Positions 50,827 through 62,716 of a stretch of 64,000 nucleotides of DNA are shown here, piece by piece; the first letter of the stretch is position 1, and every line of letters starts with the position of its first letter. Under the pieces are notes generated by a model. That model was not told the origin of the DNA, did no database searches, and saw only the letters and a list, made by a program, of their open reading frames with translations. The stretch comes from Arthrobacter burdickii (lineage in GTDB: Bacteria > Actinomycetota > Actinomycetes > Actinomycetales > Micrococcaceae), in the NCBI RefSeq assembly GCF_030433645.1, contig NZ_JAROCG010000001.1, positions 1,612,001 to 1,676,000 on the forward strand, given 5' to 3'. The position numbers and the translations under genes are program-made.

Positions 50827-51624
50827 TCAGACCGGCTGGGCTGAACCGCTCCGGACGCATGTCGACACCAGCGCGCGGCACGGCCGCGGGCAGGGTTCCT
50901 CCTGACCGGGGAGTCCGCCGGCGAGGTGCGCGGCGGCGTCGTCGTACCGGCTGAGCGCGATCTCGGCGATGACGGGACTCGGCAGCAGGGGAGCGCTGAC
51001 GACGTCGGCGCCCGCCTTCGCCAGCTGGTCGTGGAAGTACCCGGGAGCGAGCAGGTAGGAGGCGAGGGCGACCGGACCCCGATCCGGGCCCCCGCGGTAG
51101 GCGGCGACGGCCTCGGGGACGGACGGCGAGGCCTTCGACCCGAAGCCCGGCTGCACCGGACCCGTCCGGAGTTCCGCGAGGACCGCCCGCACCTCCGCGA
51201 CGTCCTCGGCGGCGCACGCGTCGGATGACCCCGCGGCCGCGAGGACCACGGCATCGCCGTCGGCCACGCCCGCCTCGGTGAGACGCTGCTGCAGGACGGA
51301 CGCGAGGCGCGGATCCGGTCCCAATGGGAGAGCGGACACCGTTCCCGGCCTGCTCGCGGCAACCCGCGCAATGTCCACCTTCACGTGGTAGCCGACGGAC
51401 AGCAGCAGCGGGACGATGACGGCCGGACGGTCCGGCGGGAGCGACGCCACGACGTCCACCAGGTCGGGGACCTGCACATCCACGTACGCCTCCAAAACGT
51501 CGAGCCCCGGACGCAGCGCGGAGATCCCGGCCCGCACGGCGTCGATCTCGCGCCGTCCCTGCACGTTGTCCGTGCCGTGGGCGCAGGCGATGAGCACGGG
51601 GGCATTGCTGGAAGGCGCGGTCAT
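50827..51624 (-). CDS. sirB: Sirohydrochlorin ferrochelatase, CbiX/SirB type
   Basis: 265 residues from ATG 51624 (MTAPSSNAPVLIACAHGTDN); the open frame continues upstream into nirD and that part is rejected. Two CbiX-like repeats: the first with ACAHGTDN and LLLSVGYHVKVDIAR (metal-binding His), the second from VLAAAGSSDACAAEDV to SYLLAPGYFHDQLAK. It inserts Fe2+ into sirohydrochlorin, giving siroheme for NirB. It lies 37 bp after nirD in the same direction. A cobalt chelatase role cannot be excluded by sequence, but the context is siroheme. Confidence 0.85.
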   Translation of the reverse strand: MTAPSSNAPVLIACAHGTDNVQGRREIDAVRAGISALRPGLDVLEAYVDVQVPDLVDVVASLPPDRPAVIVPLLLSVGYHVKVDIARVAASRPGTVSALPLGPDPRLASVLQQRLTEAGVADGDAVVLAAAGSSDACAAEDVAEVRAVLAELRTGPVQPGFGSKASPSVPEAVAAYRGGPDRGPVALASYLLAPGYFHDQLAKAGADVVSAPLLPSPVIAEIALSRYDDAAAHLAGGLPGQEEPCPRPCRALVSTCVRSGSAQPV

Positions 51625-51661
51625 GGCAGCCATTGAAGCACTGATGGAGGAACGTACGCGC

Positions 51662-52051
51662 TCAGGCGGCACCGCGGGCTTCGACTCCAGCCGCTTCGAT
51701 TCCACCCACTTCGACCACGCCGTCCACGCACCGCACTGGATACGCCCGGAGTCCCTGTCCACCCGACAGGCAGGCACCCGTGGCGAGATCGTAGACCTCC
51801 TTGTGCAGCGGGGAGGCGATGGTCGGCACAGCGCCGCGCGAGCCGACGATCCCCCGGGCCATGACGGCAGCCTGCGTCCGGGGGTCGATGTTGCCGACGG
51901 CGTAGAGCCGGTTTCCGGGGAGCCGGAACAGGGCGATCTGCTCCCCGTCGACCAGTGCGGCCTCGCCCCAGCATTCCTCGAGGTCGTCGAGTCGGCAGAC
52001 GGCCACCCAGGCCGAGAGTGCGGTGGGGCGCTGGAGTACGAGTTCGGTCAT
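51662..52051 (-). CDS. nirD: Nitrite reductase small subunit NirD
   Basis: 129 residues with a Rieske-like fold. The NirD patterns NIDPRTQAAVMARGIVGSRG and ASPLHKEVYDLATGACLSG are clear. As in other NirD proteins, the Rieske Cys/His ligands are not conserved, so no cluster is expected. AGGAG lies 7 nt before its ATG. Unusually it is not downstream of nirB but divergent from it, sharing a 266-bp control region, and it leads the nirD-sirB unit. Confidence 0.93.
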   Translation of the reverse strand: MTELVLQRPTALSAWVAVCRLDDLEECWGEAALVDGEQIALFRLPGNRLYAVGNIDPRTQAAVMARGIVGSRGAVPTIASPLHKEVYDLATGACLSGGQGLRAYPVRCVDGVVEVGGIEAAGVEARGAA

Positions 52052-52176
52052 GGCGTTCTCCTGCTGATGTCGAGTGCTGATGTCGGGGGTCCGGTGCGTT
52101 TGTCGGGGTCCGGTGCGTTGAGCACAACGCTAGGCCGGGGACGTGTCGACCAGGTCCCGGGGCTGTTGCGCCCGGG

Positions 52177-52223
52177 TAACTTGCACCTCACCGGCCCGGC
52201 GCCCGCCGGTGAGCCCGAAGTTA
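52177..52223. promoter_or_regulatory. Dyad operator between nirD and nirB
   Basis: TAACTT (52177-52182) mirrors AAGTTA (52218-52223) and CTCACCGGC (52187-52195) mirrors GCCGGTGAG (52205-52213), all centred on 52200. Each half reads (G/T)TAAC-N6-CTCAC on its own strand, pointing to the centre. The GTnAC-N6 spacing resembles actinobacterial GlnR boxes; NnaR is the other candidate. It probably controls both nirD-sirB and nirB-cobA-nnaR. Confidence 0.7.
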
Positions 52224-52317
52224 ACTTTGCGATACATCCGCGACACACAGGAGTAATTGCCCCTCCGTACGGTGGAACCAGACGCGGGACCACCCCGGCC
52301 CGGATGGAAGGCACACC

Positions 52318-54987
52318 ATGAGCGAGAACCGATCATCACGGCCCTCCGGGGACGTCCCCGCAGCGCCGGAACGGCGCATCGTCGTCGTGGGCGGGGGACC
52401 TGCAGCACACCGGTTCGTCGAAGCCCTCTGGCGGCGCGGCACCGACGAACTCTCCGTCACCGTGCTCACCGAGGAGGCGCACGCACCGTATGACCGCGTG
52501 GCGCTGAGCAGCGCGCTGACCGGCGACGTGGACCTCAGCCTCGGCGAACAGCTCATGTGGCGCGAACCGGCCATCCGGCTCGTCACCGGTGAGCGGGCGG
52601 TCAAACTCGACCTCGCGGCGCGGTGCGTGGTGGGAGCCTCCGGAGAGAAGTACCCCTACGACGACGTGGTCCTTGCCACCGGATCGGACGCCGTACGGCT
52701 GCCCCTGCCGGGCGGCGAGCACGCGGCGGTCTACCGCACGCTCGACGACGTCCAGTGGCTGCGCACGGAGACCGCCCGCCTCGCCGCCGGCCTCGGCCGG
52801 GCCCCGCGCGCCGTCGTCATCGGCGGCGGGCTCCTCGGCCTGGAGGCAGCCGGAGGACTTCAGCACCTCGGCGCCGAGTCGACGGTCGTCAACCGGGCCG
52901 GCTGGCTCATGAACGCGCAGCTCGACCAGGGCGGGGGACAGGCACTCGGGCGCCTCATCGAGGCGAAGGGCCTAGGGATCCACTGCGGCGGTGCGCCGAC
53001 CTCCATCGAGACGGACGACGGCGGGCGGGTCACCGGCGTCGCGCTGAGCGACGGGTCCGTCCTCCCCGCCGACCTCGTGGTGTTCGCCGTCGGGATCCGG
53101 CCGCGCGACGAGCTCGCGAGGGACGCCGGGCTCGAGGTGGCGCCCCGCGGCGGCGTCGTCATCAGCGCAGCCTGCGAGACCGCCCTGCCGGGTGTGTGGG
53201 CGATCGGCGAGGTCGCGAGCTACGAGGGCGTCAGCATGGGCCTGGTGGCCCCGGCGAATGCCATGGCCGAGGTCTGCGCGGACGGCATCCTCGGGGGCGT
53301 GTCCTCCTTCCCCGGATTCGACACCGCGACCAAGCTGAAGCTCTCCGGCGTCGAGGTCGCGAGCTTCGGTGACGCGCTCGCGGAGACTCCGGGCAGCCTC
53401 GAGATCGTCTACGCCGACCCGGCGAGGGGCCTGTACCAGAAGCTCGTCGTCACGGACGATGCCCGGACGCTGCTCGGCGGCATCTTCGTCGGCGACGCGG
53501 CGCCCTACTCGGCACTCCGGCCCCTGCTGGGCCGCGAGCTGCCCGCCGAGCCCGGGGCCTACCTCTCCTCCGCCGGCGGCGGTGAGGCTCCTCAGTCCGA
53601 CCTGCCCGACGACGTCATCCTCTGCTCCTGCAACAACGTCACCGCCGGCGCATGCCGGTCCGCCGTGCACGGGACGGGGGACGGCGGCGAGGAGCCGGCG
53701 CTCGACATGCTGTCGCTCAAGGCGTGCTCACGTGCCGGCACCCAGTGCGGCTCGTGCGTACCGATGCTCAAGAAGCTGCTCGACAGTGAGCTCACGAAGG
53801 CCGGACGCACCGTCTCGAAGGGCATCTGCGAGCACTTCGCGATGTCGCGGCCCGAACTGTTCGAGGCCATCCAGGCCCTCGACCTCGCCTCCTTCCAGGA
53901 CATCATCCGCCGCTTCGGAGCGACGGAGGAGGCGAAGGCCGGCCACGGCTGCGACATCTGCAAGCCCGCCATCGGCTCCATCCTGGCCACGCAGCGCGGG
54001 GAGTACGTGCTCGACGGCGGCCGCGGCACGCTGCAGGACACCAACGACCGTGCGCTGGCCAACATGCAGCGCAACGGCACCTACTCGGTGGTGCCGCGCA
54101 TCCCGGGCGGGGAGATCACGCCGCAGAAGCTCGCCGTCATCGCGCAGGTCGCCGAGCAGTTCGGCCTGTACGTGAAGCTCACCGGGGCCCTGCGGATCGA
54201 CCTCTTCGGTGCACGCCTGGAACAGCTCCCGGAGATCTGGAAGATCCTCGTCGAGGCGGGCTTCGAATCCGGCCAGGCCTACGGCAAGGCCCTGCGGAAC
54301 GTGAAGTCGTGCGTCGGCTCCACCTGGTGCCGGTTCGGCGTGCAGGACTCGGTGGCCATGGCGATCGACCTCGAACTGCGCTACCGCGGGCTGCGCGCCC
54401 CCCACAAGTTCAAGATGGGTGTCTCCGGATGCGCACGGGAATGCGCCGAGGCGCGGGGGAAGGACGTCGGCGTCATCGCCACCGACCAGGGCTGGAACCT
54501 CTACGTCGGCGGCAACGGCGGCTTCCAGCCCGCTCACGCGCAGCTCCTCGCCCAGGACCTCGATGGCGAGACGCTCATCCGCTACATCGACCGGTACCTC
54601 ATGTACTACATCCGCACCGCCGATCGCATGCAGCGGACGGCCCGCTGGATGGACGACCTCGACGGCGGGCTCGACCACGTGCGCGACGTCGTCATCCACG
54701 ACTCCCTCGGCATTGCCGAGGACCTCGAGGCAGCGATGGCCCGCCATATCGAGCACTACGAGGACGAGTGGGCGGCAACGCTCAGGGACCCCGACCGGCT
54801 CCGCCGCTTCCGGTCCTTCGTCAACGCTCCGGACGCCGCGGACCAGTCGATCGTCCTCGTCGAGGAGCGGGGCCAGCGCCGGCCGGCCACCCCCGCCGAG
54901 ATCGAGGCGCAGGCCCGTCGCACGAACCTCGGAGCGGCGATCCCCCTCCGCTCCGCAGCAGGAACCGCACCAGGAACCGAGGGCTGA
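52318..54987 (+). CDS. nirB: Assimilatory nitrite reductase, large subunit NirB
   Basis: 889 residues. It reduces nitrite to ammonium with NAD(P)H. Domains in order: FAD/NAD(P) oxidoreductase (IVVVGGGPAAHRFVEAL near residue 21; second nucleotide motif VVIGGGLLGLEAAGG), a BFD-type [2Fe-2S] domain with Cys436, Cys438, Cys477 and Cys480, then the sulfite/nitrite reductase repeats with siroheme-[4Fe-4S] ligands Cys665, Cys671, Cys705 and Cys709 (SCVGSTWC; GCARECAE). GGAAGG lies 6 nt before the ATG. First gene of nirB-cobA-nnaR. Confidence 0.96.
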   Translation: MSENRSSRPSGDVPAAPERRIVVVGGGPAAHRFVEALWRRGTDELSVTVLTEEAHAPYDRVALSSALTGDVDLSLGEQLMWREPAIRLVTGERAVKLDLAARCVVGASGEKYPYDDVVLATGSDAVRLPLPGGEHAAVYRTLDDVQWLRTETARLAAGLGRAPRAVVIGGGLLGLEAAGGLQHLGAESTVVNRAGWLMNAQLDQGGGQALGRLIEAKGLGIHCGGAPTSIETDDGGRVTGVALSDGSVLPADLVVFAVGIRPRDELARDAGLEVAPRGGVVISAACETALPGVWAIGEVASYEGVSMGLVAPANAMAEVCADGILGGVSSFPGFDTATKLKLSGVEVASFGDALAETPGSLEIVYADPARGLYQKLVVTDDARTLLGGIFVGDAAPYSALRPLLGRELPAEPGAYLSSAGGGEAPQSDLPDDVILCSCNNVTAGACRSAVHGTGDGGEEPALDMLSLKACSRAGTQCGSCVPMLKKLLDSELTKAGRTVSKGICEHFAMSRPELFEAIQALDLASFQDIIRRFGATEEAKAGHGCDICKPAIGSILATQRGEYVLDGGRGTLQDTNDRALANMQRNGTYSVVPRIPGGEITPQKLAVIAQVAEQFGLYVKLTGALRIDLFGARLEQLPEIWKILVEAGFESGQAYGKALRNVKSCVGSTWCRFGVQDSVAMAIDLELRYRGLRAPHKFKMGVSGCARECAEARGKDVGVIATDQGWNLYVGGNGGFQPAHAQLLAQDLDGETLIRYIDRYLMYYIRTADRMQRTARWMDDLDGGLDHVRDVVIHDSLGIAEDLEAAMARHIEHYEDEWAATLRDPDRLRRFRSFVNAPDAADQSIVLVEERGQRRPATPAEIEAQARRTNLGAAIPLRSAAGTAPGTEG

Positions 54988-54990
54988 ATC

Positions 54991-56043
54991 ATGCAACTCG
55001 AGATCGATCTGGCCGGGCGTCGCGTCGTGGTCCTCGGGGCCGAGCGGGCCTCGCGCAGGGTCGTGGCCCGCTACAGGGCCGCAGGGGCCGACGTCGACCG
55101 GCGGGAGACTGCCCAGGCCTGCACGGACGCGGTGCTCGTCGGCGCCGCGCTCGTCGTCGCGGTCGGAGACGCGGTGGGCGAGGCACCCAACGCGGATCCG
55201 GACTGCGCGATGGACGCACTGCGCGATCGGTGCCGCCGCAGCGGCGCACTGTTCGTGCGGGAGGCAGCTGCGCAGGGGAGCGGCACCGTGACCCTCGTCG
55301 GTGGCGGGCCGGGCGCACTCGGACTCCTGGCCCTCGACGCGGCCGCGGCCCTCCGCGAGGCCGACGTCGTCCTGTACGACAGGCTCGCCCCGACGGACGC
55401 GCTCGCGGAGCTCGCCCCGGCGGCCGACCTCGTGGACGTCGGGAAGCTGCCGGGCCACCACCGCGTGCCGCAGGCCGGCATCAACGATCTCCTGGTCCGG
55501 TACGCGCTCGACGGCAACGCCGTGGTCCGACTCAAGGGCGGCGATCCCTTCGTCTTCGGGCGCGGGAGCGAGGAGCTCGCAGCATGCCTCGCGGCCCGGG
55601 TGCCGTGCCGTGTAGTGCCGGGTGTCAGCTCGGCGATCTCCGTCCCTGCTGCCGCCGGTATCCCGGTCACCCACCGGGGCGTCAGCCACCTGTTCACGGT
55701 GGTGTCCGGCCACGCTCCGCTGAGCGACGAGGAGCACGAGCACCTGGCCGGCCTCGGCGGGACCATCGTGGTCCTGATGGGCGTCTCCACGCTTCCCCAG
55801 CTCGTCGCCGGCCTCGGCCGCGCCGGGATGCGCCCGGACATGCCGGTCGCCGTCGTCGAGCGCGGGTACAGCGCGTCCCAGCGGACGACGGCGGGCACCC
55901 TCGCCACGATCGTCACGGCGGCGGGTGCCGCACGGTGCCAGTCCCCGGCGGTGCTCGTGATCGGGGAGGTGGTGCGCGTGGGCCTCGACCTACAGGGTGG
56001 AGCCGCGCACCTCGCCCGCCTGACCGAATCGCTGGCGTCATGA
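54991..56043 (+). CDS. cobA: Uroporphyrinogen-III C-methyltransferase with reduced CysG-like N-terminus
   Basis: 350 residues. The C-terminal 250 or so are a complete SUMT: GTVTLVGGGPGALGLLALDA, VVRLKGGDPFVFGRGSEE and VPGVSSAISVPAAAGIPVTH. It makes precorrin-2 from uroporphyrinogen III for siroheme. The first 95 or so residues resemble the start of the CysG NAD-binding domain (LAGRRVVVLGAERASRRVVA) but are shorter than the usual precorrin-2 dehydrogenase module and the Gly-rich loop is altered, so dehydrogenase activity is doubtful. It starts 3 bp after nirB; its stop overlaps the nnaR ATG (ATGA). Confidence 0.92.
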   Translation: MQLEIDLAGRRVVVLGAERASRRVVARYRAAGADVDRRETAQACTDAVLVGAALVVAVGDAVGEAPNADPDCAMDALRDRCRRSGALFVREAAAQGSGTVTLVGGGPGALGLLALDAAAALREADVVLYDRLAPTDALAELAPAADLVDVGKLPGHHRVPQAGINDLLVRYALDGNAVVRLKGGDPFVFGRGSEELAACLAARVPCRVVPGVSSAISVPAAAGIPVTHRGVSHLFTVVSGHAPLSDEEHEHLAGLGGTIVVLMGVSTLPQLVAGLGRAGMRPDMPVAVVERGYSASQRTTAGTLATIVTAAGAARCQSPAVLVIGEVVRVGLDLQGGAAHLARLTESLAS

Positions 56044-57161
56044 CCGAGGCGATCCGACTGGACGGGTCGGGAGGGCAGCTGGCCGGCTTCCGTATCGGTG
56101 TGACGTCGGACCGCCGCTCGGGGGACCTGATCGACGCCCTCGAGCGGCGCGGCGCCTCGGTGTTCCACGCACCGGCCCTGAAGATCGCGCCCATCGCCGA
56201 GGACGTGGAGCTGCTCTCGGACACCGCTGCCATGGTGGCCGCCCGCCCGGACCTCTTTCTCATCACCACCGCCTACGGCATGCGCCGCTGGTTCGAGGCG
56301 GCGGACGCCGCCGGGCTCGGTGACGACCTGCTGGACGTCCTGGGAAACGGCCGCATCTACGTGCGCGGGCCCAAGGCGCGGGGAGCGGTGCGAGCGGCCG
56401 GGCTCGACGACGTCGGCATCAGCTCCGACGAGACGACGGCGACGCTGGTCGACGAGTTGCTGCAGCAGGACCTCTCAGGCCTCACCATCGGCGTACAGCT
56501 GCACGCCTACGCCGACGCGCACCAGCTGGCCCGGCTCCGCGCGGCGGGCGCGACCCTGCTCACCGTCACGCCGTACCGCTGGATCAAGCCCGAGGGCTCC
56601 GAGCGGCTGCCGAGGCTGATCGAGGCCGTCTGCGCCGGGCAGCTGGACTGCGTCACCTTCACGAGCGCCCCCGCCGTGGACGCGCTGTTCAACACGGCCG
56701 CCGAGCAGGGCCTGCAGGAGGAACTGATCCAGCGGTTCCGCCGGAGCGTCCTCGCGGCCGCCGTCGGGCCGGTCACCGCGCAGCCCCTGCTCGACGCCGG
56801 CATCGAGCCCATCGTGCCCGACCGCTACCGCATGGGTGCCCTGATCCGCCTCGTCTGCGACCACCTCGCCGAACACCACGTCGAGCAGCTCCGGACCCGC
56901 TCCGGCTACGTGGAGGTGCGGGGCAGGTCCGTCAGGGTGGACGAGGTCCAGGTGGAGCTGGCGCCCGCGCAGCTCGTGCTGTTCAAGGCGCTGCTGTCAG
57001 CCCGCGGTGCCGTCCTCAGCCGAGATGCGTTGACGCACCTCCTCGCACACACCGGTGCCGGCCATGCCCTCGACATGAACGTGAACCGGCTGCGGAAGTC
57101 CCTGCCGGACCCCGGCCTGGTCGAGACCGTGGTCAAGCGCGGGTACCGGCTGCACGTGTAG
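56040..57161 (+). CDS. nnaR: NnaR-type regulator: HemD-like domain fused to a winged helix
   Basis: 373 residues. Residues about 15-265 form a uroporphyrinogen-III synthase-like domain (GFRIGVTSDRRSGDLIDALE; VTFTSAPAVDALFNTAAEQG). Residues about 285-373 are an OmpR-type winged-helix DNA-binding domain (APAQLVLFKALLSARGAVLS; NRLRKSLPDPGLVETVVKRG). This architecture and the nirB-linked position match NnaR, which acts with GlnR on nitrate/nitrite genes in Streptomyces and Mycobacterium. Whether the HemD part is still an enzyme is unclear. The ATG overlaps the cobA stop. A separate hemD is not in this window. Confidence 0.85.
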   Translation: MTEAIRLDGSGGQLAGFRIGVTSDRRSGDLIDALERRGASVFHAPALKIAPIAEDVELLSDTAAMVAARPDLFLITTAYGMRRWFEAADAAGLGDDLLDVLGNGRIYVRGPKARGAVRAAGLDDVGISSDETTATLVDELLQQDLSGLTIGVQLHAYADAHQLARLRAAGATLLTVTPYRWIKPEGSERLPRLIEAVCAGQLDCVTFTSAPAVDALFNTAAEQGLQEELIQRFRRSVLAAAVGPVTAQPLLDAGIEPIVPDRYRMGALIRLVCDHLAEHHVEQLRTRSGYVEVRGRSVRVDEVQVELAPAQLVLFKALLSARGAVLSRDALTHLLAHTGAGHALDMNVNRLRKSLPDPGLVETVVKRGYRLHV

Positions 57162-62391: not shown

Positions 62392-62716
62392 GGAGTCCTC
62401 CAGGGGATGGGTGTTCCTGCTTTCCCCTGACGCTAGTGAGCGCGCATTTCCGGCCCTTGCGTGCTGCGTAAACGCTCCGTGACGTTCACCTATCCAAGGG
62501 CCCGGGCCGCTGTGAGAACTTCGGCGGACCCGGCTCCCGCAGGTCGCCGTCGGTGCGCACGGTCGCTCAAGATTGGTTCAAGCTTCACGGGATGACCCGC
62601 CCCGCGGCCGATGGGCGTCTTCCGGTATGCCTACAATCAGTGGCGGCGCTCCCGTTCCTGCCGCTGTTGACAGCGGAAGCCCGGCATGGAGCTTTCGTCG
62701 ACCCAGTGGGAAATGG
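62392..62716. promoter_or_regulatory. narK upstream region
   Basis: 325 bp between divergent narK and a small unknown gene. It contains a short dyad GTGA-CGT-TCAC (62479-62489) next to GTAAAC (62468-62473); these recall the GTnAC-type half-sites in the nirB-nirD region but do not repeat its exact spacing. No firm promoter was identified. Confidence 0.35.

Follow-up and report, generated by a model that had tools for sequence, protein, structure and literature searches.

The window analysed here, a stretch of 64,000 nt, carries the genes for the two subunits of nitrite reductase on opposite strands, nirD on the minus and nirB on the plus strand, diverging from a gap of 266 bp (Table 1). That a nirD-sirB unit points away from nirB-cobA-nnaR had been proposed in an earlier, sequence-only reading of this DNA, and this is the arrangement seen. 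The cobA and nnaR genes overlap by 4 bp. Of the named loci, taken from the best 80 of 282 relatives, that of Arthrobacter agilis 4041 is closest, with a NirD 97% identical, and the window genome belongs to the A. agilis group. Both regulator genes that bear on what follows are present in the genome: nnaR (HEM4 plus Trans_reg_C) in the window, and a GlnR gene outside it, at L234:1450-2157 on the minus strand, with structure matches to 8hih (5.5e-79, the best) and to 4o1h, 'Transcription regulator GlnR' (4.4e-26).

Table 1. Genes and predicted regulatory features of the window discussed in the text.
Feature	Position	Strand	Details
sirB (CbiX, PF01903)	50827..51633	-	start codon inferred; 28 nt after nirD
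nirD, small subunit (Rieske_2, PF13806)	51662..52051	-	
Predicted -10 of nirD, TAGCGT	52127..52132	-	mirror position, 68-73 from centre
GlnR-type array toward nirD, 11-bp register	52143..52180	-	GTTAC 52180-52176, GCAAC 52169-52165, GGGAC 52158-52154 (weak), GACAC 52147-52143
Predicted NnaR operator, CTCAC-N17-GTGAG	52187..52213		centre 52200; fits the motif quoted in PMC11162112
GlnR-type array toward nirB, 11-bp register	52220..52257	+	GTTAA 52220-52224, GATAC 52231-52235, GACAC 52242-52246, GTAAT 52253-52257
Predicted -10 of nirB, TACGGT	52268..52273	+	+59 from NnaR half-site; 68-73 from centre
nirB, large subunit	52318..54987	+	
cobA-type uroporphyrinogen methylase (TP_methylase, PF00590)	54991..56043	+	
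nnaR, HemD (PF02602) fused to OmpR-type winged helix (PF00486)	56040..57161	+	start inferred
Predicted -10 of narK, TAGCGT	62435-62430	-	at +59
One-sided relative upstream of narK	62468..62516	-	CTCAC 62516-62512, N17, GATAG 62494-62490, GTCAC 62483-62479, TTTAC 62472-62468

Two repeats were seen in passing. At 52062-52119, in the nirD leader, short direct repeats occur as two pairs, TGCTGATGTCG (starts 13 bp apart) and GGGGTCCGGTGCGTT (starts 19 bp apart); an aligned near relative (L002) has fewer bases there, so this stretch of the leader seems to be fast-changing. A 27-bp stretch, CTCACCCGGGCCGCGGCGTTGTGTGAG, is present twice, at G000:C1:346381 and G000:C1:351226, 4845 bp apart, and is perhaps part of a duplicated segment outside the window.

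The gap between nirD and nirB contains a dyad of four arms with a common centre at 52200, namely TAACTT (52177-52182), CTCACCGGC (52187-52195), GCCGGTGAG (52205-52213) and AAGTTA (52218-52223), exactly where the sequence-only reading had placed them; the left half reads GTAAC-TTGCAC-CTCAC on the plus strand and the right half TTAAC-TTCGGG-CTCAC on the minus strand. The same reading considered the co-centring of two arm pairs improbable by chance, which is borne out in that co-centred runs of at least 9 bp and at least 6 bp appeared in 0 of 4000 dinucleotide-preserving shuffles of the gap. The best symmetric window of the gap, with 15 of 19 pairs, also lies at 52200, and was matched in 5 of 1500 dinucleotide shuffles. 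CTCAC-N14-20-GTGAG is found at one place in the window and at least once in 55 of 100 shuffles; across the genome, CTCAC-N15-19-GTGAG is found at 17 places, against 13 for the reversed-pattern control, a count that makes the palindrome alone uninformative as a regulon finder and that weighs against reading the gap as a target of NnaR and GlnR. The inner motif is thus not rare alone, and its significance derives from its conservation across divergent gaps. That it sits at genome background, and that a few shuffles reach equal numbers of symmetric pairs, would be expected of a chance dyad in G+C-rich intergenic DNA; the complete absence of the co-centred 9 + 6 bp runs from the shuffles, together with a layout conserved across genera, contradicts chance and leaves this explanation with almost no probability.

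The inner arms make up a predicted NnaR operator. As quoted in PMC11162112, the NnaR motif of Streptomyces coelicolor and Mycobacterium tuberculosis is CTCAC[A/C][Cg].[13-16bp].GTGAG[CG][GA]; the candidate in the window reads CTCACCG-N15-GTGAG, with a spacing inside the quoted 13-16 range, and on both sides the base after GTGAG fits [CG] and the following base misfits [GA]. For M. smegmatis the motif is given as ctCACa/c-16N-t/gGTGag, that is N18 between the 5-mers (PMC6277429), so that the N17 spacer of the window is one base shorter. The same source reports that M. smegmatis NnaR bound neither the msmeg_4008 promoter, where the palindrome is one base short, nor that of msmeg_5360, which has the motif (PMC6277429), and by analogy this may count against the N17 site of the window.

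Each outer arm is the first unit of an array of GlnR-type half-sites. The two arrays are opposed and run outward in an 11-bp register, GTGAG-n6-GTTAA-n6-GATAC-n6-GACAC-n6-GTAAT on the plus strand and GTGAG-n6-GTTAC-n6-GCAAC-n6-GGGAC-n6-GACAC on the minus strand. The 16-bp GlnR box gTnAC-n6-GnAAC is matched on the minus strand at 52180-52165 (GTTAC-CCGGGC-GCAAC); the plus-strand pair at 52220-52235 (GTTAA-CTTTGC-GATAC) has two departures from the consensus. That the first unit on the right reads GTTAA where GTnAC would be expected, and that GGGAC on the left is weak, also tells against reading the gap as a target of NnaR and GlnR. Beyond the arrays lie two predicted -10 elements, picked from conservation among relatives; scanning 51900-52440 for sigma-70 promoters and terminators gave no match. 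Both elements are at an identical distance from 52200, so that the mirror image, which takes in the half-site register as well, spans 147 bp. Two divergent predicted -10 elements flanking common regulator sites have the layout of a bidirectional promoter, as far as sequence layout goes. The third array unit falls at about the -35 position and the fourth between -35 and -10. With up to four GlnR-type half-sites and a -10 of its own on each side, the gap does not conform to the single dimer pair originally suggested for it.

How widespread is this gene order? A tandem nirBD, with nirD directly 3' of nirB on the same strand, is found neither in the window nor at any of the 117 loci examined in the family, all of which are divergent; the order is the norm in the family, which rules it out as a local oddity. 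These loci (a first 30, then 7, then 80) come from the 164 NirD-positive genomes among 295 searched, the 117 sampled being mostly the better-scoring and the other 47 being left out. Other families of the same order contributed 8 divergent and 12 tandem loci, with both kinds in three families (f8, f11 and f19), and outside the order all 24 loci examined are tandem, these being the ones for which the best 30 matches gave a locus. The earlier statement that nirD normally lies 3' of nirB therefore holds for the Actinobacteria examined outside the order and fails within the family. A further set of 80 named loci, the best among 282 relatives, partly shares genomes with the remaining loci and comprises 78 divergent, one tandem and one without nirB in reach; the divergent ones include Sinomonas, Nesterenkonia, Citricoccus, Kocuria, Agromyces, Plantibacter, Cryobacterium, Leifsonia and Microlunatus parietis. 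In 66 of these 78 the neighbour of nirB is cobA, and in 65 nnaR lies downstream (sequence long enough for this to be seen is available in 73); nirD is followed by a SirB match in 34, a figure that a diverged SirB below the cut-off may depress. The sequence-only reading proposed that the arrangement could set the ratio of NirB to NirD and that of CobA to SirB; given these 34, coupling of both siroheme enzymes does not look general. One record, titled Vibrio cholerae strain 35D contig00063 (L253), has an Arthrobacter-type nir locus with a NirD at 83% to that of the window, and is most likely a case of contamination or mislabelling.

A tree of NirD (76 rows, 42 divergent and 34 tandem; unrooted, 107 columns) shows a single order change, with branch support of 100/98. 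The 76 were retained from 102 chosen loci after duplicates, fragments below 70 aa, fragments with a stop and loci without a nirB match had been dropped. On the strength of this one change, layout tracks the NirD lineage more than taxonomy.

The sequence-only reading had suggested searching the nirB-nirD gaps of relatives for the double dyad, and had named a lack of conservation in relatives of the same gene order as grounds for abandoning the idea. Since the dyad is kept in many such relatives, conservation gives no such grounds. In 125 divergent gaps the strict form CTCAC-N15-19-GTGA[GC] occurs in 53 against 0.34 expected, and a looser inner motif in 82 against 2.5 expected. Across 202 gaps, a set that excludes the divergent named locus L286 with its gap of over 700 nt, CTCAC-N17/18/19-GTGA is present in 128 (53, 65 and 10, respectively) and absent from 74, and these 74 are a further point against the NnaR/GlnR reading. 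Some of the gaps without a strict site, such as L014 and L136, have degenerate forms of it; in others (L090, L192-L194 and L198-L202) nothing similar was seen in the stretch inspected, which suggests that the divergent order outlives the NnaR site.

The phase of the arrays was analysed in 45 of the 128 anchored gaps, after arms shorter than 75 nt had been dropped and the remainder thinned at 80% identity; the 74 unanchored gaps were left out. In left arms, [GT]nnAC occurs at +11, +22, +33 and +44 in 93, 87, 29 and 84% of the 45 gaps, against a mean of 1.2% and a maximum of 11% elsewhere; in right arms the corresponding values are 4, 69, 60 and 40%, against a mean of 2.1% and a maximum of 31%. 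At +11 on the right the unit mostly resembles GTTAA, its fourth position being A in 80%. A GlnR-type motif thus accompanies the NnaR site at constant spacing, in 11-bp register on both sides, over the 45 non-redundant anchored gaps. TANNNT starting at +59 is found in 36 of 45 left arms, 34 of 45 right arms and both arms of 29 of the 45. As the -10 elements keep +59 while the spacer varies between N17, N18 and N19, each side seems to be anchored to its own NnaR half-site. A composite pattern, made up of the site and the first unit on its right, has a single occurrence in each of 27 genomes out of 295 (reversed control, 0), and by coordinates it adjoins the NirD match in 25 of the 27. The place of NirD is not listed for G262; in G260 the composite pattern lies away from the NirD match, at G260:C1:3819324-3819363.

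Promoters with one direction of transcription provide a control. Upstream of narK, which is followed by nasA-like and nasC-like genes, the window contains a one-sided relative of the element, whose 11-bp register holds when GATAG is taken as its NnaR half-site. This one-sided form occurs in 19 of 26 narK loci of the genus (the 26 being the strong matches, with some match in 30 of the 38 genomes of the genus), and GTAA[AC] 11 bp beyond CTCAC is present in 0 of the 19, against 66 of 80 nirD/nirB gaps. In genomes with tandem nirB-nirD, a loose NnaR site lies within 400 nt upstream of nirB in 12 of 30, nine of them strict, a count made without a shuffle control; three genomes had a second nirB, the promoter of which was left out. 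About five of these 12 sites have a clear array on the nirB side (L331, L333, L337, L338 and L339), the rest having a partial one or none, and an array on the opposite side is found at 0 of 12. Because narK and tandem nirB sites are one-sided, the second array is a property of the divergent gap. It also follows that the outer arm belongs with the promoter on its side, as the inner part is present at both kinds of locus without an outer part opposite. The (G/T)TAAC-N6-CTCAC unit as first described joins a GlnR-type half-site to an NnaR half-site, and it can be discarded as a single binding unit given that its outer part is missing on the non-promoter side (narK 0/19, tandem nirB 0/12) and its inner part stays. 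We also note that the L014 gap has GATAG as its NnaR half-site on the nirB side, just as narK does, and that the L015 gap looks similar; the sharing of GATAG between L014 and narK suggests that it is an accepted half-site variant.

The separability of the arms, with a palindrome and only one array at narK and at tandem nirB, is also what one would predict if the gap were two abutting, independent one-sided promoters, where the palindrome serves nirB only and nirD uses its own GlnR array without NnaR, and several gaps do keep arrays around a degenerate centre (again L014 and L136, for example). Independence is harder to reconcile with the exact 11-bp register between the left array and the CTCAC half in those 66 of 80 gaps, or with the 29 of 45 gaps in which both -10 elements are at +59 from their own half-site despite spacers of N17, N18 or N19, and we regard it as unlikely.

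Taken together, these sequence data make it very probable that the region serves NnaR and GlnR as a conserved bidirectional operator, and we consider it likely that the gap acts as a mirror-symmetric, bidirectional promoter for nitrite assimilation, activated by these two regulators. An NnaR dimer would sit on the central CTCAC-N17-GTGAG at 52187-52213, and GlnR molecules would fill the GnnAC-type half-sites outward, every 11 bp, in filament-like fashion, over 52220-52257 toward nirB and 52180-52143 toward nirD. Given where the third and fourth units lie relative to the -35 and -10 positions, RNA polymerase would be recruited by bound GlnR to TACGGT (52268) and TAGCGT (52132). Nitrogen limitation, through GlnR, and nitrate or nitrite, through NnaR, would then switch on the presumed transcripts nirB-cobA-nnaR and nirD-sirB together, and nnaR, as part of the nirB unit, would be expected to activate its own expression. 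What is reported for a strain other than that of the window, Arthrobacter sp. 24S4-2, fits such two-way activation, in that the expression of nirB, nirD and nasA rises together on nitrate and nitrite relative to ammonium (PMC9975570).

The arrays might instead serve mainly another OmpR-type regulator (MtrA, PhoP or RegX3), in which case the genes would be repressed when nitrogen is plentiful or phosphate scarce instead of being activated by GlnR. In S. coelicolor, GlnR boxes are reported to be bound also by MtrA, and one of them by PhoP (PMC6988585), so site occupancy is not readable from sequence, and the genome has 15 Trans_reg_C matches, including a RegX3-like protein. The arrays nevertheless adjoin an NnaR motif, as at the known NnaR/GlnR targets described in PMC6277429, the induction of nirB, nirD and nasA by nitrate in an Arthrobacter (PMC9975570) is at odds with it, and any competition from MtrA would come on top of control by GlnR without displacing it. 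We consider this alternative very improbable.

The regulators, the site types and the pairing of NnaR with GlnR are already known. In S. coelicolor both regulators are reported to bind and co-activate the nirB promoter, the targets being nirB, nasA and narK (Amin et al. 2012, as cited in PMC10704036); they are the two regulators proposed for the present gap. The S. coelicolor genes form a nirB1-nirB2-nirC/D cluster (PMC6988585), where the site would presumably act in one direction, whereas here the GlnR array and the predicted -10 are doubled in mirror image around the NnaR site. M. smegmatis and M. abscessus likewise have a CTCAC..GTGAG palindrome near a GlnR motif at conserved spacing (PMC6277429, PMC11162112). 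According to the same two papers, nnaR and sirB lie within a regulated narK3-nirB-nirD-nnaR-sirB operon in M. abscessus, and in M. smegmatis and M. tuberculosis a nirBD operon is divergent from narK3-nnaR-sirB. As these papers describe them, these mycobacteria differ in keeping nirB and nirD in one operon, with divergence between other genes, and in having one GlnR motif per NnaR motif, compared with the arrays seen here (PMC6277429, PMC11162112). The arrays themselves resemble the a-b-a-b arrays of Streptomyces GlnR, described as gTnAc-n6-GaAAc repeats, in their 5-bp half-sites, 6-bp spacers, 11-bp register and tandem repetition (PMC10704036), but in the present gap a pair of them runs outward from a single NnaR palindrome, each up to one of the mirrored, predicted -10 elements. 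Among the matches listed, judged by titles and abstract openings, we found no description of NnaR sites in this actinobacterial group or of a mirrored nirB/nirD promoter. RegPrecise may hold NnaR regulons for Arthrobacter and its relatives.

A fuller evolutionary reading is possible, and we offer it tentatively, as one that may well prove wrong. A one-sided NnaR/GlnR promoter of nirB would have become two-sided in a single event, at the base of a NirD lineage whose present members occur in Micrococcaceae and in many Microbacteriaceae. A single NnaR dimer would nucleate two opposite GlnR filaments, placing the subunit genes on separate transcripts activated by geometrically identical machines, and selection for a balanced supply of the two subunits would preserve the exact mirror.

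The gap offers a worked example of a palindromic operator, found elsewhere with one promoter, placed in a probable mirrored two-way promoter. It also provides a model of NnaR and GlnR sites that can be applied directly across a large group of soil Actinobacteria, and a simple system in which to ask how subunit balance survives the splitting of an operon.
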